A DNA stretch of 58,047 nucleotides, taken from assembly GCF_001921205.1 (NCBI RefSeq), contig NZ_MSIE01000041.1, forward strand, positions 1-58,047. Direction: 5' to 3'. The position numbers were made by a program, and so were the translations under genes. Position 1 is the stretch's first letter, and every line of letters begins with the position of its first letter. The DNA is from Actinophytocola xanthii (lineage in GTDB: Bacteria > Actinomycetota > Actinomycetes > Mycobacteriales > Pseudonocardiaceae). A model generated the notes under the pieces. The model worked only from the letters and a program-made list of their open reading frames with translations. It made no database searches and had not been told where the DNA came from. Of the stretch, positions 1 to 14,316 are shown in pieces.

Positions 1-257
1 ACGACGTGACCCTTGATGTCCAGCCCGAGGATGTTCTCGGCCTTGCGGACCGCGTCCTCGCGGCCCTCGGCGAGCTTCACCCCGCCGGCCTTGCCCCGAC
101 CACCTACCTTCACCTGCGCCTTGATCACCACTGGCATACCGAACTCCGCCGCGGCGTCTCCCGCGGCGGCGGCGTCCTCCACGACTCGCTGCCCTGCTCC
201 GACCGGCACGCCGTGCCGCGCGAACAGGTCCTTTGCTTGGTACTCGTACAGGTCCAC
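1..257 (-). CDS. sucC: succinyl-CoA synthetase beta subunit, N-terminal part (runs off left edge)
   Basis: Partial gene read leftward from a GTG at 257. The translation begins [20 protein letters not shown] and continues through [20 protein letters not shown], the characteristic N-terminus of the ADP-forming succinate-CoA ligase beta chain. The ATP-grasp lysine-containing segment ([14 protein letters not shown]) is present. The enzyme interconverts succinyl-CoA and succinate in the TCA cycle, pairing with SucD, which would be expected beyond the left edge. Only about 85 residues are in the window, so completeness cannot be judged. It is divergent from the MFS gene at 365. Confidence 0.93.
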
Positions 258-310
258 GCGCCCGACCCTCCAATTCATGGGCTGTGACCGGGGCCACGAT
301 GTGTTGTAGA

Positions 311-324
311 CTGTATGCAGTATG
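311..324. promoter_or_regulatory. CATAC/GTATG operator, copy A (upstream of MFS gene)
   Basis: CTGTATGCAGTATG lies 41 bases before the MFS start codon. Read on the other strand it gives CATACTGCATACAG, of which CATACTGCATAC is identical to the copy at 13109 in front of the decarboxylase/lyase operon. Likely binding site of the GntR-family regulator encoded at 2068 (inference from shared occurrence). Confidence 0.65.
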
Positions 325-364
325 GACCGCACTTGTCCAGGGAACAGCGACCCGGAGGCCAGTG

Positions 365-1723
365 ATGAGGACCTCAGCCGAGCCAGCGGCACCCCCCGCG
401 GCCAGCGAGACGCTCGACTTTCTCGGCCGGCGCTACGCCGTCGGTCCCACTGCCGAGAGCCTGCTCGGACGGCGCCGGGAGTGGATGCTCTGGCTGCCGT
501 GGGCGGCCATGGCCGCGGTCGGCGTGCTCCAGTACGGCTTCGGTTCGCTGGTGCCCTCCCTGGTGGCCCGCGGCTGGGCGCCGGTCGACGTCTTCTGGCT
601 GCTGGCGCTGTGGACGGTCTTCCAGGCCGGCGCCGGGTTCCCCGTCGCGTTCCTGCGGGAGCGGGGGCGGATCGGCCCGCGTAGCGCGATGGCCGGCGGC
701 GCCGTGTTGCTCGCGCTCGGCCCGCTCGCGCTCGCCCACGGCTCGCTGCTGGTCGCGGTGATCGGCTACTCGGTGCTCAGCGGCACCGGCGCCGGGCTGA
801 TCTACGCCACCTGCTCGTCGACGGTGGCCAAGTGGTACCCGGAGCGCACCGCCGCCAAGGTCAGCCTGGCGACCGGAGCCTTCGCCTACGGGTCGGTGCC
901 GTTCGCCGTCGCGTTCCTGTTCGCCGCGGACGCGGGCAGGCTCGTCGGCATGCTCGACGCGACGGCAGCGGTCATGTTCGTCGTCGTGCTCGGCGCCGGG
1001 CTGCTCCTGCGGGACCCGCCGGCACACTGGTGGCCGCCGACGGTCGACCCGCGGGTGTGGGCACTGGACCGCCGGCAGAGCCCGGTCAACGCCGTGCGCC
1101 AGTACTCCCCGCGCGAGGCCATGCGCACCGGGGTCGCCCCGTTGATGTACCTGATCCTGTTCTGCGCGAGCGCGGTCTCGCTGTTCGACATCACGTTCCT
1201 GGCCACCCTCGGCGCCGAGCTGGACCTGACGCTGGTCGCCGTCGCGATCGGAACGGCGGTTCTGCTCGGTACCAACGGCGCCGGCCGCTCCCTGGCGATC
1301 CGCGTCTCCGAACGGGTCGGCCGGACCCGCACACTCGGCTGGGTACTCGCGCTGCTCGGTGTCGGCCAGCTCTGCCTCGCCAGCGCGGCGACCACGGGCT
1401 CGGTGTCGATGCTGCTGCTGGCCGCCCTGCTCGCCGGTACCGGCGGCGGCGCCTTCTATCCGCTGTTCGCGAGCCTTGCCCGCGAGTTCTTTGGCGACCA
1501 GAGCGCTGGCTCGCGGCAGACGCACGCCGCCGTGTACAGCGCCAAGGCGTTCGGCGGCGTGCTCGGTGTCGGCCTCGCCGCCGCGGCCGTGCCGGCCTGG
1601 GGCTACCCGGCCCTGTTCATGCTGGCGACGGTCCTGGCGACGACCTCCGGAGCGCTGTGTCTCAAGCTGCGTCAGCCAGGCCGGTTCCTACCCGGTCTCC
1701 CGCCGCGCCAGGTCGTTCCGTAG
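365..1723 (+). CDS. MFS transporter, oxalate/formate antiporter (OFA) type
   Basis: A 452-residue polytopic membrane protein with about 12 hydrophobic segments. The segment [20 protein letters not shown] resembles the signature region of OFA-family carriers (OxlT-like), which exchange small carboxylates across the cytoplasmic membrane. I chose ATG 365 because a GGAGG at 354-358 sits 6 bases before it; an upstream in-frame extension to 233 has no ribosome site and would overlap the sucC leader. A CATAC/GTATG operator lies just upstream, tying it to the CoA-ligase/CoA-transferase/ThDP enzyme operon at 6-13 kb. Oxalate, formate or a 2-hydroxy acid are plausible substrates. The substrate cannot be fixed from sequence. 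Confidence 0.82.
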
Positions 1724-1747
1724 CCGACCGCAGGGCTCATCGGCACC

Positions 1748-1787
1748 GGGCTCACCCGACGGGTTGGTTCTCCCTCGGGGTGAGCCC
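1748..1787 (+). terminator. probable terminator hairpin after MFS gene
   Basis: GGGCTCACCCGA (1748-1759) pairs with TCGGGGTGAGCCC (1775-1787) with one bulged base, starting 24 bases past the MFS stop codon. No U-rich tail follows, so termination strength is uncertain. Confidence 0.5.
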
Positions 1788-1976
1788 AGCCGTCCGCGGG
1801 AGCGAGAAATCGCCTGGGAGCGGGATGGAGAACGGCTCGAGGCCTTCCCGCCGACCGTCGCCGGCGGCGTCCCAAACCCCCCTGTACACCCGGTCTGACC
1901 GGGGAATTCACTAATGGAGTAGTGGCGTCCGTCACGCACTGTGAAGGTGCTCACGAGGCAGGTAACGGAGAACGTT

Positions 1977-2040
1977 AAGCTGTATGCTGTAGACAGCACG
2001 CAGAGATGCGGCTGGGAAATGCCACTGGGGCATACAGCTT
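1977..2040. promoter_or_regulatory. CATAC/GTATG operators B and B2 forming an 11-bp inverted repeat upstream of the GntR gene
   Basis: AAGCTGTATGC (1977-1987) and GCATACAGCTT (2030-2040) are exact reverse complements separated by 42 bases, just before the regulator start at 2068. Both contain the CATACAG core found at the other three operators. They may be two opposed regulator sites (autoregulation, possible looping) or a stem in the 5' leader. The remainder of the 344-base gap between the MFS and regulator genes shows only the terminator hairpin. Confidence 0.6.
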
Positions 2041-2067
2041 CTCCACATCGACCTGTTGGAGTCCACC

Positions 2068-2814
2068 ATGCAGTCGAACGAGTTGCCGAAGGAACTGGCG
2101 GCTCGCCGGATCGACCGGCCTGTTCCCCTGCGTGAGCACGTCTACCAGGCGATGCAGGAGCTGATCATCTCGCGCCGTCTCGCGCCCGGTCAACACCTGG
2201 TGGAGAGCGAGTTGGCGCAGATGCTGGGGGTGTCCCGGCAGCCCGTGCGCGAGGCCCTGCAGTGGCTCAACAACGAGGGGTGGGTGGACCTGCGGCCCGG
2301 CTACGGCGCCTTCGTCCACGCCCCCACCCAGGACGAGGCCGACCAGCTGCTCGCGGTGCGCTCGCTGCTGGAGAGCGAGTCGGCCCGACTGGCAGCGGTG
2401 CACGCGGACGCCGAGGGCATCGCCCGGCTGCGCGACCTCAACCGACAGGGCATCGAGGCCCTGGCGAGCGACGACGTGGACACCGCGGTGGCACTCAACG
2501 CGGCCGTGCACCGCTGTGTCACCGAGCTGTCCGGCAACAAGGTCCTGCTGGACTTCGCCACCCAGGTGGACCGCAGGGTCCGCTGGTACTACACCCCGAT
2601 CGCGCGCCAGCGCGGCGAGCAGTCCTGGCAGGAGCACGCCAAGCTGATCGACGCGATCGAGAACCGTGATGCGGACGCCGCCGCCCGCATCATGAAGGAG
2701 CACACCGAACGGACGCGGAAGTCCTACCTCGAGCAGCGAGTGGAGGACGGCGAGGACGACCAGCAGCTGATCGCGCTGCCGACCCGCCGTCGCCGCAAGG
2801 CCGCCAAGGCCTGA
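2068..2814 (+). CDS. GntR-family transcriptional regulator with FCD effector domain
   Basis: A 248-residue cytoplasmic DNA-binding protein. A winged HTH occupies roughly residues 20-85 (LREHVYQAMQELIISRRLAP, then ESELAQMLGVSRQPVREAL), followed by an all-helical FCD ligand-binding domain to about residue 220, with the usual metal-site-like Asp/His positions (LNAAVHRCV, QEHAKLIDAI). FCD regulators typically respond to small organic acids or acyl-CoA precursors. ATG 2068 is preferred over an in-frame TTG at 2056 because GGAG (2058-2061) is correctly spaced from the ATG. CATAC/GTATG sites precede this gene and three other transcription units, so I infer it controls the whole organic acid locus and itself. 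The C-terminus is a basic tail (RRRRKAAKA). Confidence 0.92.
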   Translation: MQSNELPKELAARRIDRPVPLREHVYQAMQELIISRRLAPGQHLVESELAQMLGVSRQPVREALQWLNNEGWVDLRPGYGAFVHAPTQDEADQLLAVRSLLESESARLAAVHADAEGIARLRDLNRQGIEALASDDVDTAVALNAAVHRCVTELSGNKVLLDFATQVDRRVRWYYTPIARQRGEQSWQEHAKLIDAIENRDADAAARIMKEHTERTRKSYLEQRVEDGEDDQQLIALPTRRRRKAAKA

Positions 2815-2923
2815 CCCGCTCCCACCCCACCCTTGGCGACCACGACGGTCGCCGGTAAGGCCCTGGGCTCGCGCTGTCGCGACCCAAGGCTTACTCGTGA
2901 TGCCCGTGAGGAGGTGAACGAAC

Positions 2924-3091
2924 ATGCGCAACTGGCTGACCAGGTTCAAGGGCTTCAACGCCGACGGGCGCGCGCTCGGCCTCGGCCTCGCCGTCGCCAT
3001 GGAGCGGCAGCGCGAGCAGGCCACCCACGACGTGGAGGAGTACCTGCGGCGCAACGCCGAGGACCGTCCTGTGACGACCACCTCGGCGTGA
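2924..3091 (+). CDS. small protein, paralogue 1 (55 aa, function unknown)
   Basis: A 55-residue protein starting MRNWLTRFKGF, with a strong GAGGAGGTG ribosome site at 2908-2916. Its central segment GRALGLGLAVAMERQREQAT and the following HDVEEYLRR closely match the 60-residue protein at 3182 (GRRLGLGLATAMERQRRDAT, HEVEDYLR). The two look like a tandem duplication. Predicted character: a glycine/leucine stretch followed by a charged amphipathic helix; no signal peptide. I do not recognise the family. It is separated from its paralogue by hairpin H1. Confidence 0.72.
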   Translation: MRNWLTRFKGFNADGRALGLGLAVAMERQREQATHDVEEYLRRNAEDRPVTTTSA

Positions 3092-3126
3092 TCTGGACTT
3101 GTCGGGGTACCCCGGTTGTTGGAACA

Positions 3127-3166
3127 GGTGGAACACCGGGCCGTGGTCCGTACGGCCCGTCTCCAC
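3127..3166. repeat. hairpin repeat H1
   Basis: Stem GTGGA plus CGGGCCG pairing with CGGCCCG plus TCCAC around a loop containing GGTCCGTA. First of four related hairpins (H1-H4) between 3.1 and 4.55 kb; it lies between the two small paralogous genes and ends just before the second gene's ribosome site. Confidence 0.7.
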
Positions 3167-3181
3167 AGGAGGTGAAAGACC

Positions 3182-3364
3182 ATGCGTAGCTGGCGAGAGA
3201 TCCTCACCGCCCTGACCGCCCCGCCCCGCGGCTTCGCCGCCGACGGCCGGCGCCTGGGCCTCGGCCTGGCGACGGCGATGGAGCGGCAGCGCCGCGACGC
3301 CACCCACGAGGTGGAGGACTACCTGCGCGACGTTCCCGCCGAGCAGGTGAAGGCCGCGGCGTAA
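3182..3364 (+). CDS. small protein, paralogue 2 (60 aa, function unknown)
   Basis: A 60-residue protein with an AGGAGGTG ribosome site a few bases upstream of ATG 3182. It shares the GR(A/R)LGLGLA(V/T)AMERQR core and the H(D/E)VE(E/D)YLR helix with the protein at 2924; the N-termini differ, the second reading MRSWREILTALTAPPRGFAA. The conserved part in both is a glycine-leucine patch followed by a charged helix, which may be a protein-binding or membrane-surface element. Function unknown. It precedes a predicted phosphoesterase and is followed by hairpin H2. Confidence 0.72.
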   Translation: MRSWREILTALTAPPRGFAADGRRLGLGLATAMERQRRDATHEVEDYLRDVPAEQVKAAA

Positions 3365-3370
3365 CGCCGC

Positions 3371-4327
3371 GTGGGGGTAGACGCGATCTCGGTGGGCTGG
3401 GCCACGGTCCGTGTGGCCCAGTCCACCGACGCGTATGCCGAGGACGTCCTGGTCTCGGACCTGGGTCGCCTCGAGGGGACCGGCCGCGTCGAGCCCACCA
3501 CGAGGCCGGTCGTCCGTCTCACCGTCGACCCGCTGGAGCAGCAGGCCCAACGACCGGGCCCGCCGGCACAGGCCCTGCGGGTTCTCACCCTCAACATCCA
3601 GCACGACGCCGGCGACCAGCGGCGGCTGCCCCTGCTGAACCGCGAGCTGCGCCGGCTGCGCCCGCACCTCGTCGCGCTGCAGGAGGTCCGCGAGCACCAA
3701 CTGCCGGTGCTGCTGGCCGGCACCGACCTGAGACACACGACCCACCAGAGCGCGCTGATCCGCACGACCGACGTCGGCGGAAGCGTGGTCGCCACCCGCT
3801 GGCCGCACCGGGTCGTCGACTCGATGGAACGCCGCGAGAACAACGCCCACTGGTGGCTGCTCGCGGTCACCGTCACCGTGCCCGCCCGCGGCGACCTGTT
3901 GTTCGTCACCGGCTCGACGCCCTGGGAACCGAGCGCGGAGTGGGCCCGGGAGCACCAGGCGCGGGAGCTGGTCGCGTTGATCGCCCGGCACCCCACCCCG
4001 TTGCCGCCGGTCGTCGCCGGCGACCTGAACGCCGCCCCGGACTCCGCCAGCATCCGCCACCTGACAGCGCACCTGCGCGACGCGTGGGCCACAGCCGGAC
4101 AGGGCGCCGGCCACACCTGGACCGTGGACAATCCCCTGGCCGCGGCGGAGATCGCCCGGCTGATCGGCGACCCGACCCACCGCCGCCGCATCGACTACGT
4201 CCTCGCCGGCCGCGAAGCCCGAGTCAGGTCGGCGACGCTGGTCGCGAACCACCCGGTCGACGGCGTCTGGCTCAGCGACCACTTCGGCGTACTCGCCGAC
4301 CTGGACCTGACCGGCGTACGCCACTAA
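3371..4327 (+). CDS. endonuclease/exonuclease/phosphatase (EEP) family protein
   Basis: Carries all the core motifs of the metal-dependent EEP hydrolase fold, in order: LTLNIQHD (metal-side Asn), ALQEV (catalytic Glu), GDLNA, RIDYVLAG and SDHFGV (the terminal Asp-His pair). Members cleave phosphodiester or phosphomonoester bonds in nucleic acids, lipids or inositol phosphates; the substrate here is unknown. There is no convincing signal peptide. The start is doubtful: GTG 3371 is the longest choice, but the first 20 codons overlap hairpin H2, and GTG 3392 or 3413 are alternatives; the domain begins only near residue 68. Hairpin H3 follows the stop. Confidence 0.85.
   Translation: MGVDAISVGWATVRVAQSTDAYAEDVLVSDLGRLEGTGRVEPTTRPVVRLTVDPLEQQAQRPGPPAQALRVLTLNIQHDAGDQRRLPLLNRELRRLRPHLVALQEVREHQLPVLLAGTDLRHTTHQSALIRTTDVGGSVVATRWPHRVVDSMERRENNAHWWLLAVTVTVPARGDLLFVTGSTPWEPSAEWAREHQARELVALIARHPTPLPPVVAGDLNAAPDSASIRHLTAHLRDAWATAGQGAGHTWTVDNPLAAAEIARLIGDPTHRRRIDYVLAGREARVRSATLVANHPVDGVWLSDHFGVLADLDLTGVRH
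3390..3428. repeat. hairpin repeat H2
   Basis: A 39-base nearly perfect inverted repeat, left arm CGGTGGGCTGGGCCAC and right arm GTGGCCCAGTCCACCG, with a GGTCC loop. It overlaps the presumed 5' end of the EEP gene, so it may be a terminator/attenuator between the second small gene and the phosphoesterase. Confidence 0.72.
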
Positions 4328-4333
4328 CGGGCC

Positions 4334-4370
4334 GGTGGACTGGGCCGCGGTCCGTACGGCCCAGCCCACC
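4334..4370. repeat. hairpin repeat H3 (probable terminator of EEP gene)
   Basis: GGTGGACTGGGCCG pairs with CGGCCCAGCCCACC (one mismatch) around CGGTCCGTA, six bases after the EEP stop codon. Bases 4337-4373 are identical to 4507-4543 in H4, a 37-base exact direct repeat. Confidence 0.75.
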
Positions 4371-4416
4371 GAGTTCCGGGGGTCGATCGACGTTCGGAAC
4401 AGAAGCTCAGGGGAAC

Positions 4417-4485
4417 GTGACGCAGGCCAGCCACAAGTACGCACCCGGGCCGAGCCCGCGCCTCCCAAGGCGACCAACACACTGA
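4417..4485 (+). CDS. possible 22-aa peptide between hairpins H3 and H4
   Basis: GTG 4417 follows CAGGGGAAC and opens a 22-codon frame (MTQASHKYAPGPSPRLPRRP, then TH) ending at TGA 4485. It sits alone between hairpins H3 and H4, as the other small genes sit between H1 and H2. Basic and proline-rich, no recognised family; it may be chance. Confidence 0.2.
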   Translation: MTQASHKYAPGPSPRLPRRPTH

Positions 4486-4505
4486 ATTCCGGGGAGTCGG
4501 ACCAG

Positions 4506-4540
4506 CGGACTGGGCCGCGGTCCGTACGGCCCAGCCCACC
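4506..4540. repeat. hairpin repeat H4
   Basis: Fourth copy of the GGGCCG/CGGCCC hairpin with the same GGTCCGTA loop, near the 3' end of the leftward TerC gene (stop 4577). It could act as a terminator for that gene. Confidence 0.72.
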
Positions 4541-4576
4541 GAGCTGTGGAAAATCAGTGGTCCGCCTCCCCGTAAC

Positions 4577-5584
4577 TCAGTCGATCTCGGCGGGGCTTTC
4601 CCGTGGCACCGGGGTGGTGACGGCGGTGTCGACCTCTCGACGCCGGTCGCGGCGGACCTTGAGCAGGCTCGCCACGGTGGTGACGGCCAGGGTGCCGACG
4701 ATGATCGCCAGCGACACGAGGATGGGGATCTCCGGTGCCCAGGAGACGCCGTCGTGGTGCAGTGCCTCCAGCACCAGCTTGACGCCGATGAAGCCGAGCA
4801 CCACGGACAGGCCGATGCTCAGGTACACGAGCTTGTCCAGCAGCCCGCCGATGAGGAAGAACAGCTGGCGCAGCCCCATCAGGGCGAACGCGTTGGCGGT
4901 GAACACCAGGTAGGGCTCCTTGGTGAGCCCGAAGATCGCCGGGATCGAGTCGAGGGCGAACAGCAGGTCGGTCGTGCCGATCGCGACCATCACGATCAGC
5001 ATCGGGGTGACCATGCGCTTCCCGTTCACCTTCGTGGTGATCCGGGCGCCTTCGTAGGTGTTCGTCGCGGGCAGCACCTTCTTCACCGCCCGCAGCATCG
5101 CGTTCTCCTTGAACTCCTCCTCCTCGTCGTCCTTGTGCATCATCAGCTTGTAAGCCGTGTAGACGAGGAACGCGCCAAAGAAGTAGAAGAGCCAGTCGAA
5201 GCGGGTGATCGCCTGGTACCCGATCAGGATGAACGCGCCGCGCATGAGCAGCGCCAGCACGATGCCGATCGACAACACCTTCTGGCGGAACTGCCGGGGT
5301 ACCGCGAAGGACGACATGATGATCACGAAGACGAACAGGTTGTCGACCGAGAGTGAGTACTCGGTGATCCACCCGGCGAAGAACTCACCGCCGTACTGCG
5401 GGCCCTCGAAGGCCAGGATGCCCAGTCCGAACAGGATCGACAGCGTCACGTAGCCCGAGATCCAGAGAGTGCATTCCTTGAGCGACGGGTCGCGCGGGTT
5501 GCGCGAGATGAAATAGAAGTCCAGGCAGATGATGGCGATGAGGCCAACGCCGGTGACCAGCCACAGCCACAGTGGAACGTTCAT
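4577..5584 (-). CDS. TerC/Alx-family integral membrane protein
   Basis: A 335-residue membrane protein with about nine hydrophobic segments. TerC hallmarks are the acidic membrane motifs EYSLSVDNLFVF (near residue 75) and LLFALDSIPAIFG (near residue 210), separated by a charged cytoplasmic loop (HKDDEEEEFKEN). Family members include Alx and TerC, linked to manganese export and tellurite resistance. Start ATG 5584. It is convergent with hairpin H4 and follows, 108 bases downstream, the small membrane protein of the preceding operon, so co-transcription is possible but not shown. No metal-responsive riboswitch is evident in the short leader. Confidence 0.93.
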   Translation of the reverse strand: MNVPLWLWLVTGVGLIAIICLDFYFISRNPRDPSLKECTLWISGYVTLSILFGLGILAFEGPQYGGEFFAGWITEYSLSVDNLFVFVIIMSSFAVPRQFRQKVLSIGIVLALLMRGAFILIGYQAITRFDWLFYFFGAFLVYTAYKLMMHKDDEEEEFKENAMLRAVKKVLPATNTYEGARITTKVNGKRMVTPMLIVMVAIGTTDLLFALDSIPAIFGLTKEPYLVFTANAFALMGLRQLFFLIGGLLDKLVYLSIGLSVVLGFIGVKLVLEALHHDGVSWAPEIPILVSLAIIVGTLAVTTVASLLKVRRDRRREVDTAVTTPVPRESPAEID

Positions 5585-5692
5585 CGGCTCCCTTTCGCCC
5601 GCGCGCGGGCACGACTCGTCGATGCGCCGAGTCCAACACTACGGCGCACCGACGAGCTCCTCGCGGGGACTTGATCTACTTCGAGGTCGGCG

Positions 5693-6340
5693 TCAGGGTG
5701 TCGGGGACGCCGCCTTCTTCACGGCGGTCGCCTTCCCCGGACGCGCGGGCGGGCGGTCGGCACCGCGGGCCGGGGTTTCCGGACGACCGCCCCGACGACG
5801 GGCCGCCCTGACCTGGTCGCGCATCGCCTTGCGCCGCTCCTTGGCCTCGAACAGGATCCTCGCGTGCTCGGCGTAGCGCAGGTACACCTCGCGGGCGCGG
5901 GGGTTGCGCCCGGAGATCCGCTGCCAGTACTGGGGCGCCACGCGCTCGTGCAGCCAGAGGAAACCGATGGAGAAGCCCGCACTGACGATTCCCTGGTAGG
6001 CGAGGAAACCGAGCGGGTCGGGGGGCAGCGACGGCGACCCACCCAGGATCCACGAGGTGAGCACCTCGTGCAGCAGACGGGCCGCCGGGAAGGCGATCAG
6101 CCAGTAGAGCGCCGCGGGAGCGAACCCGCCGAGGCGCACCTTGTTCTGCACGAGCAGCATCGTGTAGCCGGCGCCGAGCAGGGCCAGCGGAATGCCCAGC
6201 GCCAGGCCCGTCACCAGCGCCCAGCCGACGGGCTGGCCGACGAATCCGGCCAGCCCGCCGGCGAGGACACCGGCGATGAACCCAACGGCGAGCCCGGGGA
6301 GGGTGAGCTCGGCCAAACGGTAGAGGCGCATCGCAGTCAT
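5693..6340 (-). CDS. small integral membrane protein, unknown family
   Basis: About 215 residues. The N-terminal two thirds contain roughly four hydrophobic helices rich in Gly/Ala/Leu (PGLAVGFIAGVLAGGLAGFV, ALVTGLALGIPLALLGAGY, and others). The C-terminal third is a soluble, very basic tail (KERRKAMRDQVRAARRRGG). It begins 7 bases after the Nramp-like gene stop, so the two are almost certainly co-transcribed and may work as a pair. ATG 6340 touches the AAGGG ribosome site; ATG 6331, eight to nine bases from it, may be the true start. I do not recognise the family; an accessory subunit of the transporter is inference. Confidence 0.75.
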   Translation of the reverse strand: MTAMRLYRLAELTLPGLAVGFIAGVLAGGLAGFVGQPVGWALVTGLALGIPLALLGAGYTMLLVQNKVRLGGFAPAALYWLIAFPAARLLHEVLTSWILGGSPSLPPDPLGFLAYQGIVSAGFSIGFLWLHERVAPQYWQRISGRNPRAREVYLRYAEHARILFEAKERRKAMRDQVRAARRRGGRPETPARGADRPPARPGKATAVKKAASPTP

Positions 6341-6347
6341 CCCTTGG

Positions 6348-7844
6348 TCACAGAACAACGCCGTACCTGAACAGGCTGTAGAACAGCATGCCGAGGTAGA
6401 ACACCGCACCGAAGCCGATGATGGCGTTCGACCACCACTTCGGCCGAATCGGCTTCGGCAACATCTTGTTGTTCACCAGCAACAACGTGACGCAGTAGGC
6501 ACCCATGGCGAACGCGGAGAGGAACGCCAGGATGTCGAGTACGCCCGCCGGACCGTCCGCGGGCCCGAACAGCAGGATCAGGATGCCGAAGGTGATGACA
6601 CCCCACAGGAAGCCCGCGTACAGGTGGGACAGCCGGAACCGCCGTGCGCCGGGCACGTGGAAGTAGGTCATGTCCGCCTGGCCGCGGGAGAACGAGTCGA
6701 ACAGACCCAGCGTGGCGTTCAACCCGATCAGCGCGATGAACCCGAAGAACACCGACCCGAGCACCGGTGAGCCCGCCGCCGCGAACGCGTCGGACATCGC
6801 CGCGAGCGCCGCGTCCCGGTCGCCGCCCTCGATCAGCTCCTTGACGTTCGGGTTCTCCCTGGCCGCCGACTGGGCGAGCACGGTGAACGAGATCGTCACG
6901 AGCATCGTGACGCCCCAGAACAGCAGGAACGCGTCGAAGGTGACCCACTTGCGCCAGCCGCGCCACTTCTCCATCTCCTGCGGGTTGTCCGTGTCGAACA
7001 TGAACCCGCGGGCGGGCATCTCCTCCTCGTCCTTGGCCGCCCGGAGACCGCGGATCTTGGGCACGTGCGCGCCCATGCCGGCCCCGGAGTCCCGGAGGTG
7101 GAGCGTGTACCACATCTGCTGCATGCCGGACGGGCCCGCGAACGCGATCGAGCCCACGATGACCGGGAACCACGCCTCGGTGAACATCTCCGAGGGCATG
7201 TACCCGAAGGCGAACATGCCGCCCAGCGTCGAGCCGAGGTCACCCCAGCTACCGACGATCGACGCGATGATCGCCGTGCCGATGACCAGCGTGCCGATGA
7301 GGATGGCGAGCACGTTCTCCAGCAAGTTGTAGATCACGCTGGCCAGGCTGAACAGGATCCCGACCAGCACCAGGGCGACGCAGGCCGTCACGACCCACGG
7401 AATCCCGGTTATCTCCTCGAACGCCGCGGCGCCCGCCGAGAGGTGACCCGGCCAGATGTAGACCAGGATCGCTGTCACGAAGAAGAACCACATCAACGGT
7501 TTGAACACGCGGGCCGCGCCGGAGAAGATGCTCTCCCCCGTCGCCATCGCGTACCGCGCCATCTCCAGCATCACCACTGCCTGCAGGGTGACACCGATCA
7601 GGAACAGCCACCTGATCTCCGGCCCGAAGACCAGCACCAGACGTGGCCACATGTACGACTCGCCCATACCCACGCCGAGCGCGACCAGGAACACGGTCGG
7701 GCCCAGCAGGTGGATGGAGGGCGGCGCGTCTGGCAGCGGGCGAATGGGCATGGGTTCGAGCCCCCCGGCTCGCCATACCCGTTCCTCGCCCGCGACAGTG
7801 GCCTCACCACTGCCCACGGCGGGAGGATTGTGAGAATCCACCAT
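6348..7844 (-). CDS. Nramp-fold transporter lacking canonical metal-binding motifs
   Basis: A 498-residue polytopic protein matching the Nramp/SLC11 fold (TM1 context GPTVFLVALGVGMGESYMWP; about 11-12 membrane segments). In metal-transporting Nramps TM1 carries DPGN and TM6 carries a Met-Pro-His motif. Here the TM1 position reads GMGESY (residues 59-64) and the TM6 position reads GPSGMQQMWYTLHL, so the usual ligands are absent. A long soluble loop (residues about 270-310, charged) separates middle helices. ATG 7844 has GGAGG just upstream. It lies downstream of the CoA-ligase gene (120-base gap) in the organic acid operon, so a non-metal substrate such as a carboxylate is possible (inference); a Mg-type Nramp relative is the alternative. 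Confidence 0.8.
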   Translation of the reverse strand: MVDSHNPPAVGSGEATVAGEERVWRAGGLEPMPIRPLPDAPPSIHLLGPTVFLVALGVGMGESYMWPRLVLVFGPEIRWLFLIGVTLQAVVMLEMARYAMATGESIFSGAARVFKPLMWFFFVTAILVYIWPGHLSAGAAAFEEITGIPWVVTACVALVLVGILFSLASVIYNLLENVLAILIGTLVIGTAIIASIVGSWGDLGSTLGGMFAFGYMPSEMFTEAWFPVIVGSIAFAGPSGMQQMWYTLHLRDSGAGMGAHVPKIRGLRAAKDEEEMPARGFMFDTDNPQEMEKWRGWRKWVTFDAFLLFWGVTMLVTISFTVLAQSAARENPNVKELIEGGDRDAALAAMSDAFAAAGSPVLGSVFFGFIALIGLNATLGLFDSFSRGQADMTYFHVPGARRFRLSHLYAGFLWGVITFGILILLFGPADGPAGVLDILAFLSAFAMGAYCVTLLLVNNKMLPKPIRPKWWSNAIIGFGAVFYLGMLFYSLFRYGVVL

Positions 7845-7964
7845 TGGACCTCCAGTGTTCGGTGTAACTACCGCCTGCCTGCCTGTCGACCCCTGCCGGG
7901 TGGCCGCCGTTTTCCGTCCCGGCGGCCACCCCACCTTCTGAACTTGGTTCTGGTCGGCGACTTC

Positions 7965-10103
7965 TCAGCCGTCGATCAGGCCGGCGGCCCGCGCCCACCG
8001 GTACTTCGCGCCGAGGACCGCGACCGGTCGCTCGGTCGTGTAGGGATACGCGATCACCCGATGCTCGAAGAGGTAGTCGCAGGCCTGCTCGACCTCGGTG
8101 TCGCCGGCCAGGGACGCCACCACCGGCTTGTCGATCCCCTTGGCACGCGCCTCGGCGAGCACCTTCGCGGTCAGCTCGGCGAACACCATCGGCGGCGTGA
8201 CGATCGTGTGCCAGTAGCCCAGGATCAGCGCGTGGATGCGCGGGTCCTCGAGGCCAAGGCGGATGGTCGCCTCGTACGTCGACGGCGGCTCGCCACCGGT
8301 GATGTCGATCGGGTTGCCCGCCGCGCCGAACGGCGGGATGAACGCGCGGAACGCCTCGTCGAGGTCCGGTGGGATGTCCATCAGGGACAGACCCTCCGCG
8401 ACACAGGCGTCCGAGAGGAGCACTCCCGAGCCGCCGGCGCCGGTGATGATGACGACGTTCTCGCCCTTCGGGGTCGGAAGCAACGGCAGACCCCGGGCGT
8501 ACTCCAGCATCTCGTTCAGCCCCGGCGCCCGAACCACGCCGGCCTGGCGGAGGATGTCGTCGTACACCTTGTCGTCGCCGGCCAGGGCACCGGTATGCGA
8601 GCTGGCTGCCCGCGCACCCATGTCCGTACGGCCCGCCTTGAGCACGACAACAGGCTTCTTCTTGGTCATGCGCTGCGCGGTCTCCACGAACGCACGACCG
8701 TCCTTCAGGTCCTCGAGGTGCATGGCGACACACTGCGTGTTGTCGTCGTTCTCGAAGAACGTCAACAGGTCGTCCTCGTCCACGTCGGACTTGTTGCCGA
8801 GGCCGACGATGGCCGAGACGCCCATCTTGGTGGTCCGGGCGAAGCCGAGGATGGCCATGCCGATACCACCGGACTGCGAGGTGAGCGCGACGCCGCCCTT
8901 CACGTCGTAGGGCGTGCAGAACGTCGCGCACAGGTTCTGCGGTGTGTAGTAGTAGCCGTAGATGTTCGGGCCTAGCATGCGGACGCCGTACTCGGTGGCG
9001 ATGCCGACGATCTCGTCCTGGAGCTCCTGGTTGCCGGTCTCGGCGAACCCGGACGGGATCATCACGGCCGCGGTGACGCCCTTCTTGCCGCACTCGGTCA
9101 GCGCCGCCGGCACGAACTTCGCCGGGACCGCGAACACCGCGACGTCCACCTCACCCGGCACGTCGGCGATCGTCCTGTACGCGGTGCGCCCCTGGATCTG
9201 CTCGGCCTTGGGGTTGATCGGGTAGATCTCCCCCGCGTAGCCGCCGTTGATCAGGTTCTTCATCACCGAGTTGCCGATCTTGCCGGCCTGGTCGGAGGCA
9301 CCGATGACGGCGACCGAACGCGGGTTCATCAGCCGGTTCATCGCCGTGAGGATGTCCTCCTGGCTGTGCCGCACCGGTTCGGACCGCTTCTCGGTCTCCA
9401 GCAGGATCCGCACGTCGGCCGCCGTCGCGCCGCTCGCCGAGGCGAACACCGGGTTGAGGTCGAACTCGCTGATCTCCGGGAAGTCGGTGACCAGCTGGGA
9501 CACCTTCTGGATCACGTCGGCGATCGCGTCGAGGTCGGCCGGCTCGGCACCGCGGGCGCCCTGAAGCACCTCGGCGGCCTGGATGCCGGTGACCATGGAC
9601 CTCGCCTCGGCCTGGTCCAGCGGGGCCAGGCGGAAGGTGACGTCCTTGAGCACCTCCACCAGCACGCCGCCGAGGCCGAACGCGACGACCTTGCCGAACG
9701 TGCCGTCGGTGGTGGCGCCGACGATGACCTCCTGGCCGCCGCCGACCATCTCCTGGATCTGCACCCCGGAGATCGAGGCGTTCTCCTTGTATGCCTTGGC
9801 GTTGGCAATGATCTTGTCGAACGCCGCGCGGGCGGCGTCCGCGCCGTCCACACCGATGATGACGCCGCCGGCCTCGGTCTTGTGCAGGATGTCCGGGGAG
9901 ACGATCTTCGCGGCCACCGGCTTGCCGATCTCCTCGGCGAGGCTCGCTGCCTCGTCCGCCGTCGTGGCGAGACCCTCACGCGGGGTGGGGATCCCGTACG
10001 CGTCGCAGACCCGCTTGCCCTCGGGGGCCGTGAGCGAGTCCCGTCCCTCGGCCCGGACCTTGTCCAGGACCTCGCGGACGGACGCCTTGTCTACTTCGGA
10101 CAT
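7965..10103 (-). CDS. acyl-CoA ligase (ADP/NDP-forming), fused ATP-grasp and CoA-binding subunits
   Basis: A 712-residue fused acetate/acyl-CoA synthetase of the NDP-forming superfamily. Order: N-terminal ATP-grasp subdomain (about 1-230, with KIVSPDILHKTEAGGV and a C-terminal DLNPVF), CoA-binding Rossmann domain (about 260-390, PRSVAVIGASDQAGKIGNSV), then ligase domains with SSHTGALAGDD, whose His503 is the expected phosphohistidine. The ATP-grasp half precedes the CoA-binding half, opposite to several archaeal enzymes. It would activate a carboxylate with ATP and CoA. It is four bases from the CoA-transferase gene in one operon, so it may prime the cycle by making the first acyl-CoA (oxalyl-CoA, acetyl-CoA or a 2-hydroxyacyl-CoA). 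Substrate not deducible. Confidence 0.9.
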   Translation of the reverse strand: MSEVDKASVREVLDKVRAEGRDSLTAPEGKRVCDAYGIPTPREGLATTADEAASLAEEIGKPVAAKIVSPDILHKTEAGGVIIGVDGADAARAAFDKIIANAKAYKENASISGVQIQEMVGGGQEVIVGATTDGTFGKVVAFGLGGVLVEVLKDVTFRLAPLDQAEARSMVTGIQAAEVLQGARGAEPADLDAIADVIQKVSQLVTDFPEISEFDLNPVFASASGATAADVRILLETEKRSEPVRHSQEDILTAMNRLMNPRSVAVIGASDQAGKIGNSVMKNLINGGYAGEIYPINPKAEQIQGRTAYRTIADVPGEVDVAVFAVPAKFVPAALTECGKKGVTAAVMIPSGFAETGNQELQDEIVGIATEYGVRMLGPNIYGYYYTPQNLCATFCTPYDVKGGVALTSQSGGIGMAILGFARTTKMGVSAIVGLGNKSDVDEDDLLTFFENDDNTQCVAMHLEDLKDGRAFVETAQRMTKKKPVVVLKAGRTDMGARAASSHTGALAGDDKVYDDILRQAGVVRAPGLNEMLEYARGLPLLPTPKGENVVIITGAGGSGVLLSDACVAEGLSLMDIPPDLDEAFRAFIPPFGAAGNPIDITGGEPPSTYEATIRLGLEDPRIHALILGYWHTIVTPPMVFAELTAKVLAEARAKGIDKPVVASLAGDTEVEQACDYLFEHRVIAYPYTTERPVAVLGAKYRWARAAGLIDG

Positions 10104-10107
10104 TGCC

Positions 10108-11337
10108 TCAGATCACTCCATTCGCCTTGAGCTCGGCGAGCTCCTGCTCGGGCAGGCCGAGCTCGGAGCCGTAGATTTCCTGGTTGTGCTCCCCGAGGAG
10201 CGGCGAGCGCTCCACGGTGGTCGGCGAGTCGGACAGCTTGATCGGCATACCGACGGTGGTGAACTCGCCTCGCTCGGGGTGGTCCACCTTGACCACGATC
10301 TCGTTCTCCGCCAGCGAGGTGTCCTCGATGATCTCCTTGGTGGACAGGATCGGCCCGCACGGCACGTTGTGGGCGTTGAGCTTCGCCAACACCTCCCACT
10401 TGTTGTGCCCGGAGGTCCAGTCCTCGATCAGCTGGAACATCTTGTCCAGCTTGTTGAGGCGAGCCTCCGGCGTCGACCACTCGGGGTCGTCGGCCAGCTC
10501 GGGCCGGCCGATCAGCTTGGCGATCGGCTCCCAGCCGACCGGCTGAACGATCACGTAGATGTAGTCGTTCGGCCCACCCGGCGCGCACTTGACGGCCCAG
10601 CCGGGCTGACCGCCGCCGGAGGCGTTGCCCGAGCGGGGCACCTCGTCGCCGAACTCGGCGTTGGGGTACTCCTTGAGCGGGCCGTGCGCGAGCCGCTGCT
10701 GGTCACGCAGCTTCACCCGGCACAGGTTGAGCACCGCGTGCTGCATCGCGACGGTCACCCGCTGCCCGCGACCGGTGTGCTCACGCTGGTACAGGGCGGC
10801 CAGGATGCCGGCCACGGTGTGCATACCGGTGCCGGAGTCGCCGATCTGCGCGCCGGTGGCCAGCGGCGGTCCGTCCTCGAAGCCGGTGGTGGACATCGAG
10901 CCACCCATTGCCTGCGCGACCACCTCGTAGGCCTTGAAGTGGGTGTAGGGGCCGTCGCCGAAGCCCTTGATCGAGGCGTAGATCAGCCGGGGGTTCAGCT
11001 CCTGGAGCTTCTCCCAGCTGAAGCCCATCCGGTCGACCGCGCCGGGCCCGAAGTTCTCGGCGAGGATGTCGAACTTCTTCACCATCTCGGTGAACAGCTC
11101 CTTGCCCCGCGCGGACTTCATGTTCAGCGTGATACTGCGCTTGTTGCAGTTCAGCATCGTGAAGTAGAGGCTGTCCACATCGGGCAGATCGCGCAGCTGC
11201 TTGCGCGTGATGTCACCGGTCGGAGCCTCGATCTTGACCACGTCCGCACCGAGCCACGCCAGGATCTGCGTACAGGAGGGTCCACTTTGGACGTGGGTCA
11301 TGTCGAGGACCCGAACGCCCTCGAGTGCCTTTCGCAT
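10108..11337 (-). CDS. frc: class III (CaiB/BaiF) CoA-transferase, formyl-CoA transferase-like
   Basis: A 409-residue family III CoA-transferase. Close to Frc: MTHVQSGP with Gln17, the catalytic aspartate in GDSGTGMH (Asp167, equivalent to Asp169 of Oxalobacter Frc), and a glycine loop SGGGQPGW where Frc has its tetraglycine gate. Frc moves CoA from formyl-CoA to oxalate, giving oxalyl-CoA and formate. It is 11 bases downstream of the ThDP enzyme that would release formyl-CoA, so the two form a CoA-recycling pair. The carboxylate acceptor might be oxalate or, if the neighbour is a 2-hydroxyacyl-CoA lyase, a 2-hydroxy acid. The gene symbol is by similarity only. Confidence 0.85.
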
Positions 11338-11348
11338 GCCAGGCCCCT

Positions 11349-13076
11349 TTACTTGTACATGGTCTGGTTCATCGTCCCCGGGGCGTACACCTCGGGGTCG
11401 ACCCAGACGTTGATCAGCGAGGGCAGGCCGCTCTCCCGCGCACGCTCGAGCGCCGGGCGGATGTCCTTGGGGTCGCGGACCTCCTCGCCGTAGCCGCCGA
11501 GCATCCGGGCGAACTCGTCGTAGCGCACGTCGCCCAGGGTGTTGCCCACCCGGCCGCGGTCGGCGCCGTACTTCTGGATCTGCCCGTAGCGGATCTGGTT
11601 CATCGAGGAGTTGTTGCCGACGATGCCCACGAACGGCAGGTTGAAGCGGACCAGCGTCTCGAAGTCGAAGCCGGTGAGGCTGAAGGCGCCGTCACCGAAC
11701 AGTGCGACGACCTCCTTGTCCGGCCGCGCGTACTTGGCCGCCATCACGAACGGGACGCCCACGCCGAGGGTGCCAAGGGGACCCGGGTCCATCCAGTGCC
11801 CCGGGGACTTGGGCTGCACGACCTGGCCGGAGAACGTGACGATGTCGCCGCCGTCGCCGATGTAGATCGAGTCCTCGGTGAGGAACTCGTTGATCTCGTG
11901 GACGAGCCGGTACGGGTCGATCGGCGTCGAGTCGGACAGCTGGCGCGGCAGGCGCTTCTCGTAGGCCTGGGTCTCCACCGCACGCAGCTCCTCCAGCCAC
12001 GCCTTCCGGCCAACGGCGCCGTTGTCCACCCGGCCGGAGGCGGCCTGGGTGACAGCTGCCAGAACGGCGCCGGCGTCGCCCACGATGCCCAGGTCGACGT
12101 CGCGGTTCTTGCCGACGGTGCGGTAGTCGAGGTCGATCTGGACCACGGTCGCCTGCTGGGAGAGCCGCTTGCCGTAGCCCATCCGGAAGTCGAACGGGGT
12201 GCCGACGATGATGATCAGGTCGGCGTTCTGGAAGGCGTAGCGGCGGGCGAGCTGGAGGTGGTGCGGGTCGCCCGGGGGGAGCGTGCCGCGGCCGGAGCCG
12301 TTCATGAACGCCGGCACGTTGAGCGCGCGGACGAACTCGATGGCGGCGTCGGTGCCCCGGGTGGTCCATACCTGGCTGCCGAGCAGCACGCACGGCTTCT
12401 CGGCGCTGACCACGAGGTCGGCGAGGCGCTCGACGGCCGCGGGGTCACCCGAGGTCTTCGTCGAGGCGCGGTAGCCGCCGGCCTTCGGGATGCGTGCCTT
12501 CGCAAGCGGCACGGAGGCGTCCAGCACGTCGCGCGGGATCTCCAGGAAGGAGGGTCCGGGGGCGCCGTGGAAGCACTCGCGGAAGGCCATCGACACCAGG
12601 TCGGCCGCGCGCTCGGTGCTGGGCACGGTGGCGGCGAACTTGGTGATCGGGGTCATCATGTCGACGTGCGGGAGGTCCTGCAGGGACCCCATCTTGTGCT
12701 GGCTGAGCGCACCCTGGCCGCCGATCAGCAGCATGGGGCTCTCCGCGCGCAAGGCGTTGGCGACACCGGTGACCGCGTCGGTCGTGCCAGGGCCGGCGGT
12801 CACCACGGCGCAGCCGGGCTTGCCGGTGATCCGCGCGTAGCCGTCGGCCGCGTGCGCGGCGACCTGCTCGTGGCGCACGTCGATGACGTCGATCCCCTCG
12901 TCGACACATCCGTCGTAGATGTCGATGATGTGTCCACCGCAGAGCGTGAAGATCACGTCCACGCCCTCGGCCTTGAGCGCCTTGGCCACCAGATGACCAC
13001 CGGAGATCGTCTCCGGGTTCTCCTGACCGTCGCTGCCCGGCGTCTCCCGGACGGTTGAAGCCATGTGACTCGTCAT
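11349..13076 (-). CDS. ThDP-dependent oxalyl-CoA decarboxylase or 2-hydroxyacyl-CoA lyase
   Basis: A 575-residue thiamin diphosphate enzyme: PYR domain with catalytic Glu70 ([12 protein letters not shown]), central domain, and PP domain with [10 protein letters not shown]...NN metal/ThDP motif. The stretch following Glu70 ([20 protein letters not shown], then [16 protein letters not shown]) resembles the ILVBL/HACL2 branch and acetolactate synthases more than Oxalobacter Oxc, which has a Tyr-Glu pair (QGDYEEMD) there. The C-terminus ends in [12 protein letters not shown], a possible active-site lid. With the adjacent Frc-like transferase, formyl-CoA is the likely product, from oxalyl-CoA or a 2-hydroxyacyl-CoA. 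ATG 13076 abuts its GAGGAG; ATG 13064 is an alternative. Operon promoter carries operator C. Confidence 0.85.
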
Positions 13077-13108
13077 CTCCTCATGTCATCGTGTGTCGAG
13101 GTGTGGCG

Positions 13109-13126
13109 CATACTGCATACCGTATG
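13109..13126. promoter_or_regulatory. CATAC/GTATG operator, copy C (ThDP enzyme operon)
   Basis: CATACTGCATACCGTATG contains the perfect palindrome CATAC-C-GTATG (13116-13126) and an extra upstream CATAC. It is 33 bases upstream of ATG 13076, in position to block or activate the leftward operon promoter. Confidence 0.7.
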
Positions 13127-13287
13127 ACTCTAATGAGGGCCAGCGTCCCGGTCTACGTTTTGTCGTCCGCGCCTGTCGAAGCTGTTGCCTGATCCCACTC
13201 ACGCTGGCATCGGCGAGCCCTTCGAGCCGCCTTGCAGCGCCCTGACCAGCCGATCCGTGTTCACTCTTCTCGTTTTGGCCAACATCT

Positions 13288-13306
13288 CATACTGTATGCT
13301 GCATAC
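13288..13306. promoter_or_regulatory. CATAC/GTATG operator, copy D (reductase gene)
   Basis: CATACTGTATGCTGCATAC holds two overlapping palindromes, CATAC-T-GTATG (13288-13298) and GTATGC-T-GCATAC (13294-13306), ending 29 bases before the GTG start at 13336. About 160 bases from copy C in the same divergent promoter region; the sequence between the two shows nothing else I can name. Confidence 0.7.
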
Positions 13307-13335
13307 CAAATGAACACAAGAACGGAGCTTACGCG

Positions 13336-14316
13336 GTGAAAGTTGCTGTTCTTGGGGCCGGCGCCATCGGCGCGTACGTCGGTGCCGCCCTGCACCGGGC
13401 AGGAGCCCAGGTGCATCTCATAGCCAGAGGTCCCCATCTGGAGAAGATCCGTGCCGACGGCGTCCGGGTGCTCAGCCCCCGGGGCGACTTCGAAGCCCGT
13501 CCCCATGCAACTGACGACCCGGCCGAGGTTGGCCCGGTCGACCATGTCTTCCTCGGCCTGAAGGCCAACCGGTACGCCGAGGCCGGCCCGATGATCAAGC
13601 CGTTGCTGCACGACACCACCACGATCATCGCGGCGCAGAACGGGATCCCCTGGTGGTACTTCCACGGCGTGCCGGGCAGGTACGCCGGTTACCGGATCAA
13701 CAGCGTCGACCCCGGTGGTGCGGTCAGCGCCGTGCTGCCGGTCGAGCGAGCGATCGGCTGCGTCGTCTACGCGGCGACGGAGATCGCCTCCCCCGGCGTG
13801 ATCCGCCACCTGGAAGGCACCCGTTTCTCCATCGGCGAGCCGACCGGCGAGATCTCGAGCCGCTGCACGGAGTTCTCCGAAGCGATGATCGCCGGCGGTC
13901 TCAAGTGCCCGGTGGAGCCGGACCTGCGCAAGGACATCTGGCTGAAGCTGATGGGCAACATCGCCTTCAACCCCATCAGCGCCCTGACCAGAGCGACGAT
14001 CGCCGGCATGTGTCGACACGCGGACACCCGCGAGGTGGTCATCCAGATGATGCGCGAGACCCTCGACGTCGCCGCGCGGCTGGACTCGTACCCGGAGATC
14101 TCCATCGAGCGGCGGATGGCCGGTGCCGAGCGGACCGGCGAGCACAAGACGTCGACACTGCAGGACCTCGAGAAGGGCAAACCGCTCGAGCTGGACGTGA
14201 TCCTCAAGGCAGTCGTCGAGCTGGCGGACCTGACCGGTGCGGAGGCGCCGACGGTGCGGGTGGTCAGCGCGCTGGCCGACCTGCTGAACGAGCAGGTGAG
14301 CGCTCAGGCGAGCTGA
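13336..14316 (+). CDS. ketopantoate reductase (ApbA/PanE) family 2-oxoacid reductase
   Basis: A 326-residue NAD(P)-dependent oxidoreductase. The N-terminal Rossmann motif GAGAIGAYVG (residues 7-16) is followed by the typical VFLGLKANRY and the C-terminal helical domain (LRKDIWLKLMGNIAFNPISA, containing the family's catalytic Lys/Asn region, and a late Glu in the ELDVILKAV helix). Family members reduce 2-oxoacids, e.g. ketopantoate, to 2-hydroxy acids. GTG 13336 has GGAG eight bases before it. It is divergent from the ThDP enzyme operon and shares its operator, so it probably handles a 2-oxo or 2-hydroxy acid of that pathway rather than making pantoate. A strong terminator follows. Confidence 0.85.
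   Translation: MKVAVLGAGAIGAYVGAALHRAGAQVHLIARGPHLEKIRADGVRVLSPRGDFEARPHATDDPAEVGPVDHVFLGLKANRYAEAGPMIKPLLHDTTTIIAAQNGIPWWYFHGVPGRYAGYRINSVDPGGAVSAVLPVERAIGCVVYAATEIASPGVIRHLEGTRFSIGEPTGEISSRCTEFSEAMIAGGLKCPVEPDLRKDIWLKLMGNIAFNPISALTRATIAGMCRHADTREVVIQMMRETLDVAARLDSYPEISIERRMAGAERTGEHKTSTLQDLEKGKPLELDVILKAVVELADLTGAEAPTVRVVSALADLLNEQVSAQAS

Follow-up and report, generated by a model that had tools for sequence, protein, structure and literature searches.

Regulons in which a GntR/FCD protein controls catabolic genes are known as a kind, with NanR of E. coli a repressor that acts through three short GTAT half-sites on several operons of one catabolic pathway (PMC8012715). Among systems for oxalate, Cupriavidus necator links formyl-CoA:oxalate CoA-transferase (Frc), a thiamine pyrophosphate (TPP)-dependent enzyme, and a PanE/ApbA-like reductase in its frc-oxc/apbA2 genes, with deletion of frc-oxc abolishing growth on oxalate and deletion of apbA2 slowing it (PMC7486775). 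Here we describe a 58,047-nucleotide stretch of the Actinophytocola xanthii genome (NZ_MSIE01000041.1, contig C141 of the 8.34-Mb genome; hereafter the window), in which a repeated CATAC/GTATG element precedes genes resembling those of the C. necator system. We consider it likely that the GntR/FCD protein encoded at 2068–2814 uses this element as its operator, and predict that it represses an oxalate-catabolic regulon together with its own gene. The initial annotation had proposed one operator and one GntR/FCD gene at the centre of a compact regulon, and this proposal is strongly supported by the footprint of the site across 80 related loci and by the co-occurrence of the regulator with the TPP enzyme.

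The operator consensus, tgCATACnGTATGCAGTATGca, is a 22-bp unit containing three GTATGca half-sites, one inverted and two direct, arranged as an inverted pair (CATAC-n-GTATG) with a third GTATG half-site following two bases on. The three half-sites hold 8.0, 9.5, and 7.9 bits respectively in sites upstream of the TPP-enzyme gene (28 distinct), 7.2, 9.3, and 6.8 bits upstream of the PanE-type reductase (32 sites), 7.9, 9.0, and 6.2 bits upstream of a major facilitator superfamily (MFS) carrier (18 sites), and 3.9, 8.3, and 5.5 bits upstream of the GntR gene (43 sites). Because the third half-site retains information in all four sets, it is a conserved part of the operator, as is the palindromic core CATAC-n-GTATG, in AC-n-GT order. 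The likeness to NanR extends to protein family, half-site, and regulon, with the operators differing in that the E. coli NanR operator, (GGTATA)3, has all of its half-sites direct (PMC8012715), whereas the first half-site of the window operator is inverted. The two regulators also differ in substrate, and the window protein falls below the NanR model cut-off. Within the FadR subfamily the operator consensus is GT-n-AC, to which NanR, with its GTAT repeats, is described as an exception (PMC4494728).

All four copies of the motif reported by the initial annotation are present in the window, including the 12-mer CATACTGCATAC, which matches exactly between copies A and C. Copy A (GTATGCAGTATG, 313–324) forms part of operator A (TGTAGACTGTATGCAGTATGGA, 305–326, forward strand), which lies between the genes for the beta subunit of succinate-CoA ligase (sucC) and the MFS carrier and scores 28.0 against the matrix described below. 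Copy C (CATACTGCATACCGTATG, 13109–13126) forms part of operator C (GTCATACGGTATGCAGTATGCG, 13107–13128, reverse strand; score 33.9), 31–52 bp 5′ of the TPP gene, with similar sites found upstream of the TPP gene in relatives. Copy D (CATACTGTATGCTGCATAC, 13288–13306) belongs to operator D (CTCATACTGTATGCTGCATACC, 13286–13314, forward strand; scores 25.7 and 30.1) upstream of the reductase gene, where a reverse-strand site at 13293–13314 overlaps CTCATACTGTATGCTGCATACC. Copy B, upstream of the GntR gene, consists of the 11-mers AAGCTGTATGC (1977–1987) and GCATACAGCTT (2030–2040), perfectly inverted to each other and 53 bp apart from start to start; the former lies in operator B1 (1974–2002, forward strand), a pair of overlapping weak sites scoring 9.4 and 11.7, and the latter constitutes operator B2 (2030–2040, reverse strand), recognised from its sequence as the inverted partner. 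Copy B is present at the position reported by the initial annotation and is weaker than that annotation had implied (score 11.7). The sites map to transcription units, with A serving sucC and the MFS carrier, B the GntR gene, C the genes for the TPP enzyme, Frc, and an ADP-forming acyl-CoA synthetase (ACD), and D the PanE-type reductase; A, C, and D lie ~30–60 bp upstream of start codons.

In the window, GTATGCNGTATG with up to two mismatches occurs 10 times against 3.4 expected, a count reached in none of 100 shuffles, with nine of the 10 matches falling in the four sites, and 10 of the 25 GTATG/CATAC pentamers in the 58 kb also lie within them. The motif CATACNGTATG with two mismatches occurs seven times in the window against 4.65 expected, which is not significant (18 of 100 shuffles are as high), and this form was dropped as evidence. 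A motif scan of the whole genome, as the initial annotation had suggested, supports the element in its exact forms: exact CATACNGTATG is found in two places, C and D, which both fall in the interval separating the TPP-enzyme gene from the reductase gene (reversed control, 0), and GTATGCNGTATG without mismatch is found in three, namely A, C, and position 23394 of contig C153. CNGTATGCWGNA is found in seven places, four of them the reported sites (reversed control, 5), and GTATGCNGTATG with two mismatches 303 times (158 + 145), barely above the 285 (152 + 133) of its reversed control. The latter was thus rejected as a detector, and a matrix trained on relatives was used in its place. Within an own-genome background of 20 stretches (~400 kb, 399,580 positions) no position scores 12 or more and the maximum is 11.4, which A (28.0), C (33.9), and D (30.1) all exceed and copy B only just passes; since its score barely tops the background, copy B rests on its position and on conservation in relatives. 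Across the window, the 13 top-scoring matrix entries all overlap the four sites, with the 14th, at 5142, scoring 5.9.

The matrix (22 columns) was trained only on sites upstream of the TPP gene, using 25 distinct sites from 66 of 80 named loci that carry this gene, these loci being the best 80 of 592 confirmed stretches; the TPP regions of the other 14 loci gave no good consensus match and were excluded from training, and a first, iterative matrix was discarded as circular. The closest named TPP relative among these 80 is that of Actinophytocola algeriensis (95%). One record among the relatives (L010, JOAA01000021.1; 12.4-Mb genome) is labelled Rhodococcus rhodnii and matches the Kibdelosporangium loci in gene order, identities, and operators, and is probably mislabelled. 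Genes for GntR, PanE, and MFS proteins were found in 65, 63, and 60 of the 80 loci, with 64, 62, and 56 counted as having their start within reach; distances in relatives are measured to the point where the aligned protein begins, with start codons there unchecked. Scores of at least 8 are found upstream of TPP in 76/80 loci (the training class), PanE in 61/62, GntR in 59/64 (43/64 at 12 or above), and MFS in 32/56. For PanE, the matrix gives no independent result in loci whose divergent TPP and PanE genes share one intergenic region; it is better tested on GntR, MFS, and SucC. SucC (at least 55% identity) occurs in 54 of 87 loci scanned (the 80 plus seven further stretches), with a site no more than 500 bp upstream in 50 of the 54.

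The motif scan of relatives proposed by the initial annotation thus places sites upstream of TPP, PanE, GntR, and MFS genes, and none at a score of 8 or more in the 304 upstream regions of the operon-internal genes for Frc (80), ACD (80), an Nramp-like transporter (51), TerC (42), and a hypothetical protein (51); two of the 42 TerC regions reach a score of 6. The 24 MFS genes that have no site are all located 3′ of ACD in the same orientation (at 55–412 bp in 22 cases and ~1.6 kb in two), whereas none of the 32 MFS genes with a site is so placed, and the sites therefore mark transcription units. The composite site accordingly stands upstream of the TPP operon, the reductase, and the regulator, and in many relatives also upstream of the carrier, sucC, and formate dehydrogenase.

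The regulator (2068–2814, forward strand) passes the Pfam cut-offs for the GntR domain (PF00392, 69.2 against 27) and the FCD domain (PF07729, 98.4 against 24.3), and the NanR model NF003011 is among its best NCBIfam matches, at 98.6 bits against a cut-off of 260. The Asn/His/His/His set of the FCD domain is kept in 21 aligned GntR proteins, residues of this type being metal-binding in FCD proteins. Co-occurrence of the regulator with the TPP gene was assessed in 60 genomes of the family, with ortholog cut-offs of E ≤ 1e-40 for GntR and E ≤ 1e-150 for TPP. Each gene is found in 23 genomes, with 22 genomes holding both, 36 neither, and one each of the two alone (Fisher 3.6e-14, kinship ignored). 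The genome with GntR and no TPP ortholog (G039) carries its GntR gene ~3 kb from a formate dehydrogenase ortholog, and G010 is the genome with a TPP ortholog and no GntR. Furthermore, a GntR ortholog (56–91% identity) is present in all 14 genomes searched, 10 of which were chosen because no GntR gene was found near their TPP gene.

The genes next to the sites agree in family with the initial annotation, which had named a transporter, a CoA ligase, a CoA transferase, and a C–C cleaving TPP enzyme. At the contig edge, the N-terminal part of sucC (3–257, reverse strand, GTG at 257; NF001913, E 2.4e-24 for the fragment) is a proposed member behind site A. The MFS carrier (365–1723, forward strand, ATG at 365) is related to oxalate/formate antiporters, with NF049980, TIGR00890, and TIGR04259 (119.8, 93.8, and 86.0 bits) all under their cut-offs; that it works like an oxalate carrier is suggested by its context. 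Downstream of site C on the reverse strand lie the TPP enzyme (11349–13076), a proposed non-canonical oxalyl-CoA decarboxylase, frc (10108–11337; TIGR03253, 683.9 against 504.2), whose product aligns over its full length with E. coli YfdW (492 bits) including the glycine loop GGGQPGW, and the ACD gene (7965–10103; PF19045, PF13549, PF13607), of the acetate–CoA ligase type. The Nramp-like transporter (6348–7934; NF037982, 456 bits against 50; in 51/80 loci), a conserved hypothetical membrane protein (5693–6409; in 51/80 loci), and a TerC/Alx metal-homeostasis protein (4577–5584; TIGR03718, 371 bits against 246; in 42/80 loci) follow on the same strand and probably share the operon, so that site C probably controls them also. 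As oxalate chelates metals, a metal or metal-oxalate link for this tail is conceivable. Between the regulator and TerC genes, two open reading frames on the forward strand (2924–3091 and 3182–3364; 55 and 60 aa) share ADGR.LGLGLA.AMERQ, and a somewhat similar small frame lies between TerC and GntR in one related locus (L067, 18130–18462).

Forward of site D, the reductase gene (13336–14316; NF005089, 430.7 against 223) encodes the PanE/ApbA fold domains PF02558 and PF08546 and is linked to frc/TPP or oxalyl-CoA decarboxylase (OXC) genes, a linkage also seen in Proteobacteria. The initial annotation had called it a 2-oxoacid reductase, which is probably wrong, as the PanE/ApbA-like protein beside frc-oxc in C. 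necator is described as an oxalyl-CoA reductase, or CoA-acylating glyoxylate dehydrogenase (PMC7486775). Drawn from this genetics and from the Phyllobacterium clusters described below, the window enzyme is by analogy probably an oxalyl-CoA reductase, forming glyoxylate. Relative to the C. necator system, the actinobacterial clusters add Nramp-TerC, sucC, and formate dehydrogenase. The four units listed in the initial annotation stand as members of the regulon; the list omits sucC behind site A, a link new relative to it, the Nramp-like, hypothetical, and TerC genes that follow ACD, and a formate dehydrogenase operon located elsewhere in the genome.

That operon lies on contig C153 of the same genome and joins an AFOR-family gene (from 21564; PF02730, PF01314) to a formate dehydrogenase alpha gene (987 aa; TIGR01591, 783 against 666), with one site directly 5′ of each gene (scores 15.6 and 17.5). 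A formate dehydrogenase ortholog in another genome of the family (G037) also has a site directly upstream, scoring 17.9. In relatives, genes for formate dehydrogenase and for FdhD that carry sites adjoin the oxalate cluster: among 44 further site clusters scoring at least 12 in the 80 loci, 18 lie upstream of an fdhA-type gene, two upstream of fdhD, and four upstream of sucC. A Streptosporangium locus (L019) encodes a 641-aa alpha subunit (656 bits, just under the cut-off of 666) with NuoEF-like, NuoG-like, and MoeA-like neighbours, and the FdhD of a Planotetraspora locus (L036) is above its cut-off. A candidate site scoring 21.5 in the A. xanthii genome (C147:18086; L093, 1499–1520) overlaps what is probably the start codon of a beta-carbonic anhydrase gene divergent from a SulP-type transporter, and would be consistent with the handling of CO2/bicarbonate while oxalate is consumed. 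Two further candidates are listed only, one near an AraC-type gene (C139, 17.4) and one at an aldehyde dehydrogenase gene (C203, 14.3).

We infer the following sequence of events. Without inducer, dimers of the regulator would occupy the sites ~30–60 bp upstream of start codons and so prevent transcription, the location of A, C, and D being suited to a roadblock-type repressor, and oxalate or an oxalate-derived metabolite such as its CoA ester would bind the FCD domain and release the DNA. The carrier would then import oxalate, Frc would make oxalyl-CoA and later pass CoA on to the next oxalate, and the TPP enzyme would decarboxylate oxalyl-CoA to formyl-CoA. Formate dehydrogenase would oxidise the resulting formate, yielding NADH, the PanE-type enzyme would reduce a share of the oxalyl-CoA to glyoxylate, from which biomass is built, and the ADP-forming ligase together with SucCD may prime or balance the CoA pool. 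In place of repression, the protein could act as an activator with oxalate or oxalyl-CoA as co-activator, a role that composite and paired sites could serve (16 of 22 pairs upstream of MFS genes are spaced 59–61 bp). Such an activator is unlikely, with A, C, and D placed where a repressor would block, and repression is preferred from this position.

The TPP enzyme scores below the models for OXC (TIGR03254, 236.5 against 739.4), 2-hydroxyacyl-CoA lyase (NF058623, 363.4 against 600), and acetolactate synthase (PRK05858, 512 against 587), and is 66% identical to a C. metallidurans protein, 38.0% over the segment compared to the lyase AcHACL, which has different gene partners, and 25.8% to E. coli Oxc. 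It shares a superfamily with the Oxalobacter and E. coli oxalyl-CoA decarboxylases, likewise with Frc as partner; however, the OXC active-site residues Y120, E121, and Y483 (PMC10192776) are replaced in it by Leu, Gln, and Ile, the third beside an alignment gap. In a survey of oxc genes, almost every sequence had Tyr120 and Glu121, the sole substitutes being Phe and Gln, and one group of the surveyed sequences was entirely actinobacterial (PMC10192776). Because it has Leu at position 120, the present family is probably not in that survey.

On a second alternative, the same operator and regulator would serve a pathway for a 2-hydroxy acid, in which the TPP enzyme is a 2-hydroxyacyl-CoA lyase releasing formyl-CoA and a carbonyl product, with Frc recycling CoA. 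The best solved-structure match of the enzyme is indeed an actinobacterial 2-hydroxyacyl-CoA lyase (278 bits), with entries named oxalyl-CoA decarboxylase at 178–265 bits, the top one of which is also named 2-hydroxyacyl-CoA lyase/synthase; the enzyme carries the Leu-Gln pair of AcHACL rather than the Tyr-Glu of OXC, and a GntR gene also lies beside the actinobacterial lyase (PMC7176365). We nonetheless regard this pathway as rather unlikely. The catalytic Glu493 of AcHACL aligns with Ile in the window enzyme and in seven other aligned family members, including that of C. metallidurans (the position was fixed by two lyase mutant chains that differ there, the residue being named in PMC8760513), the score is below the lyase cut-off, and the companion Frc is an oxalate enzyme. 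Additionally, Phyllobacterium clusters with this TPP type carry OxlT (601 against 335), frc, sucCD, ACD, and PanE, with that of P. zundukense further carrying glyoxylate carboligase and transhydrogenase, and canonical OXC takes the place of this TPP type in related neighbourhoods.

An oxalyl-CoA decarboxylase role is favoured instead by two observations. First, canonical OXC (TIGR03254 above cut-off) is missing in 22 of the 24 cluster-bearing genomes searched among the 80 loci, the other two being Pseudonocardia; three Kribbella loci (L071, L075, L078) have the cluster and no canonical OXC above cut-off, and oxalate use has been reported for this genus (Robertson and Meyers 2022, as cited in PMC10192776). 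Second, in PanE-GntR-Frc neighbourhoods of Cupriavidus and Caballeronia, the present TPP type alternates with canonical oxc, the latter accompanied by a second frc, though the slots are not quite identical. Seven replicons of these genera were searched for OXC, the search covering these replicons only: none of the four with the TPP type has OXC above cut-off, and of the three without it, two have OXC above cut-off and one, from Cupriavidus sp. EM10 (L221, 13563–15229), carries oxc in two pieces.

Proteobacterial PanE and TPP homologs were reached through a plasmid collection, and 14 loci were scanned for the core of the operator. C. metallidurans holds PanE, GntR, TPP (65%), Frc (65%), and ACD (70%) genes together, with GACATACGGTATGTGATATACC ~155 bp upstream of the aligned TPP start. 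Three Azospirillum records have GACATACGGTATGTGGTATACC ~150 bp upstream of PanE, with no TPP gene in the stretch read, and in C. campinensis and Cupriavidus sp. EM10, ATACnGTAT sites lie upstream of Frc and of canonical oxc. Eight of the nine ATACnGTAT words in the 14 loci fall within 220 bp upstream of PanE, TPP, Frc, or oxc. On balance we lean towards a regulator-operator pair that spans Actinomycetota and some Proteobacteria, and towards the TPP enzyme as a second oxalyl-CoA decarboxylase family, with an active site unlike that of OXC or the lyase, which may replace OXC in the same Cupriavidus/Caballeronia neighbourhood and serve most actinobacteria holding it.

A third alternative accepts the operator and assigns it to a different regulator, the GntR gene being a mere neighbour. 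Binding of the GntR protein to the sites is indeed a prediction, the GntR gene lies 25–27 kb from the TPP gene in three Streptomyces genomes, and the AC-n-GT order is atypical for a subfamily in which GT-n-AC is usual (PMC4494728). Against this stand the near one-to-one co-occurrence of GntR and TPP genes, the sites preceding the GntR gene itself, a GntR/FCD homolog (28–33% identity) adjoining those Cupriavidus versions that have the core site, and the binding of GTAT repeats by NanR, a member of the same subfamily (PMC8012715), all of which make another regulator improbable. The last alternative, chance A+T-rich promoter repeats, draws on the two-mismatch motif forms lying at or near control in window and genome, and is refuted by conservation, exact-motif counts, and the matrix background.

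Several findings weigh against the operator being that of a GntR/FCD repressor of oxalate genes. The central pair, AC-n-GT, is the reverse of the FadR-subfamily order GT-n-AC (PMC4494728), repression is deduced solely from site position, and copy B is weak, such that its score alone would not carry it. The TPP enzyme scores below the OXC cut-off and does not carry the OXC active-site residues, and the MFS protein is under the OxlT cut-off (TIGR04259, 86 against 335). Of the 44 further site clusters, 20 are not upstream of fdhA, fdhD, or sucC, and the extra genome sites near the carbonic anhydrase, AraC-type, and aldehyde dehydrogenase genes are candidates only. Five of six formate dehydrogenase orthologs in other genomes of the family (L134, L135, L137, L138, L139) have no site, two of these five coming from TPP-bearing genomes (G056 and G049), in the latter of which a second copy adjoins the oxalate cluster with sites in between. 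Lastly, eight of the 14 proteobacterial loci (L192, L194, L216, L220, L222, L223, L224, L225) contain no ATACnGTAT.

Whilst a GntR/FCD catabolic regulon is known as a kind, the novelty lies in the present regulon, the composite form of its operator, its occurrence in more than one phylum, and the enzyme that the operator marks. Searches of the open-access literature brought up no paper that, judged by title and the start of the abstract, deals with a regulator or operator of oxalate genes. Soil bacteria that consume oxalate supply the oxalate-carbonate pathway, and with an operator defined, oxalate genes can be catalogued directly from sequence across many genomes, among them those that the canonical oxc model misses. 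With 22 of 24 cluster genomes lacking a TIGR03254 match above cut-off, surveys that count canonical oxc alone could overlook such organisms. The operator furthermore leads to a testable claim about a TPP enzyme whose active site is unusual.

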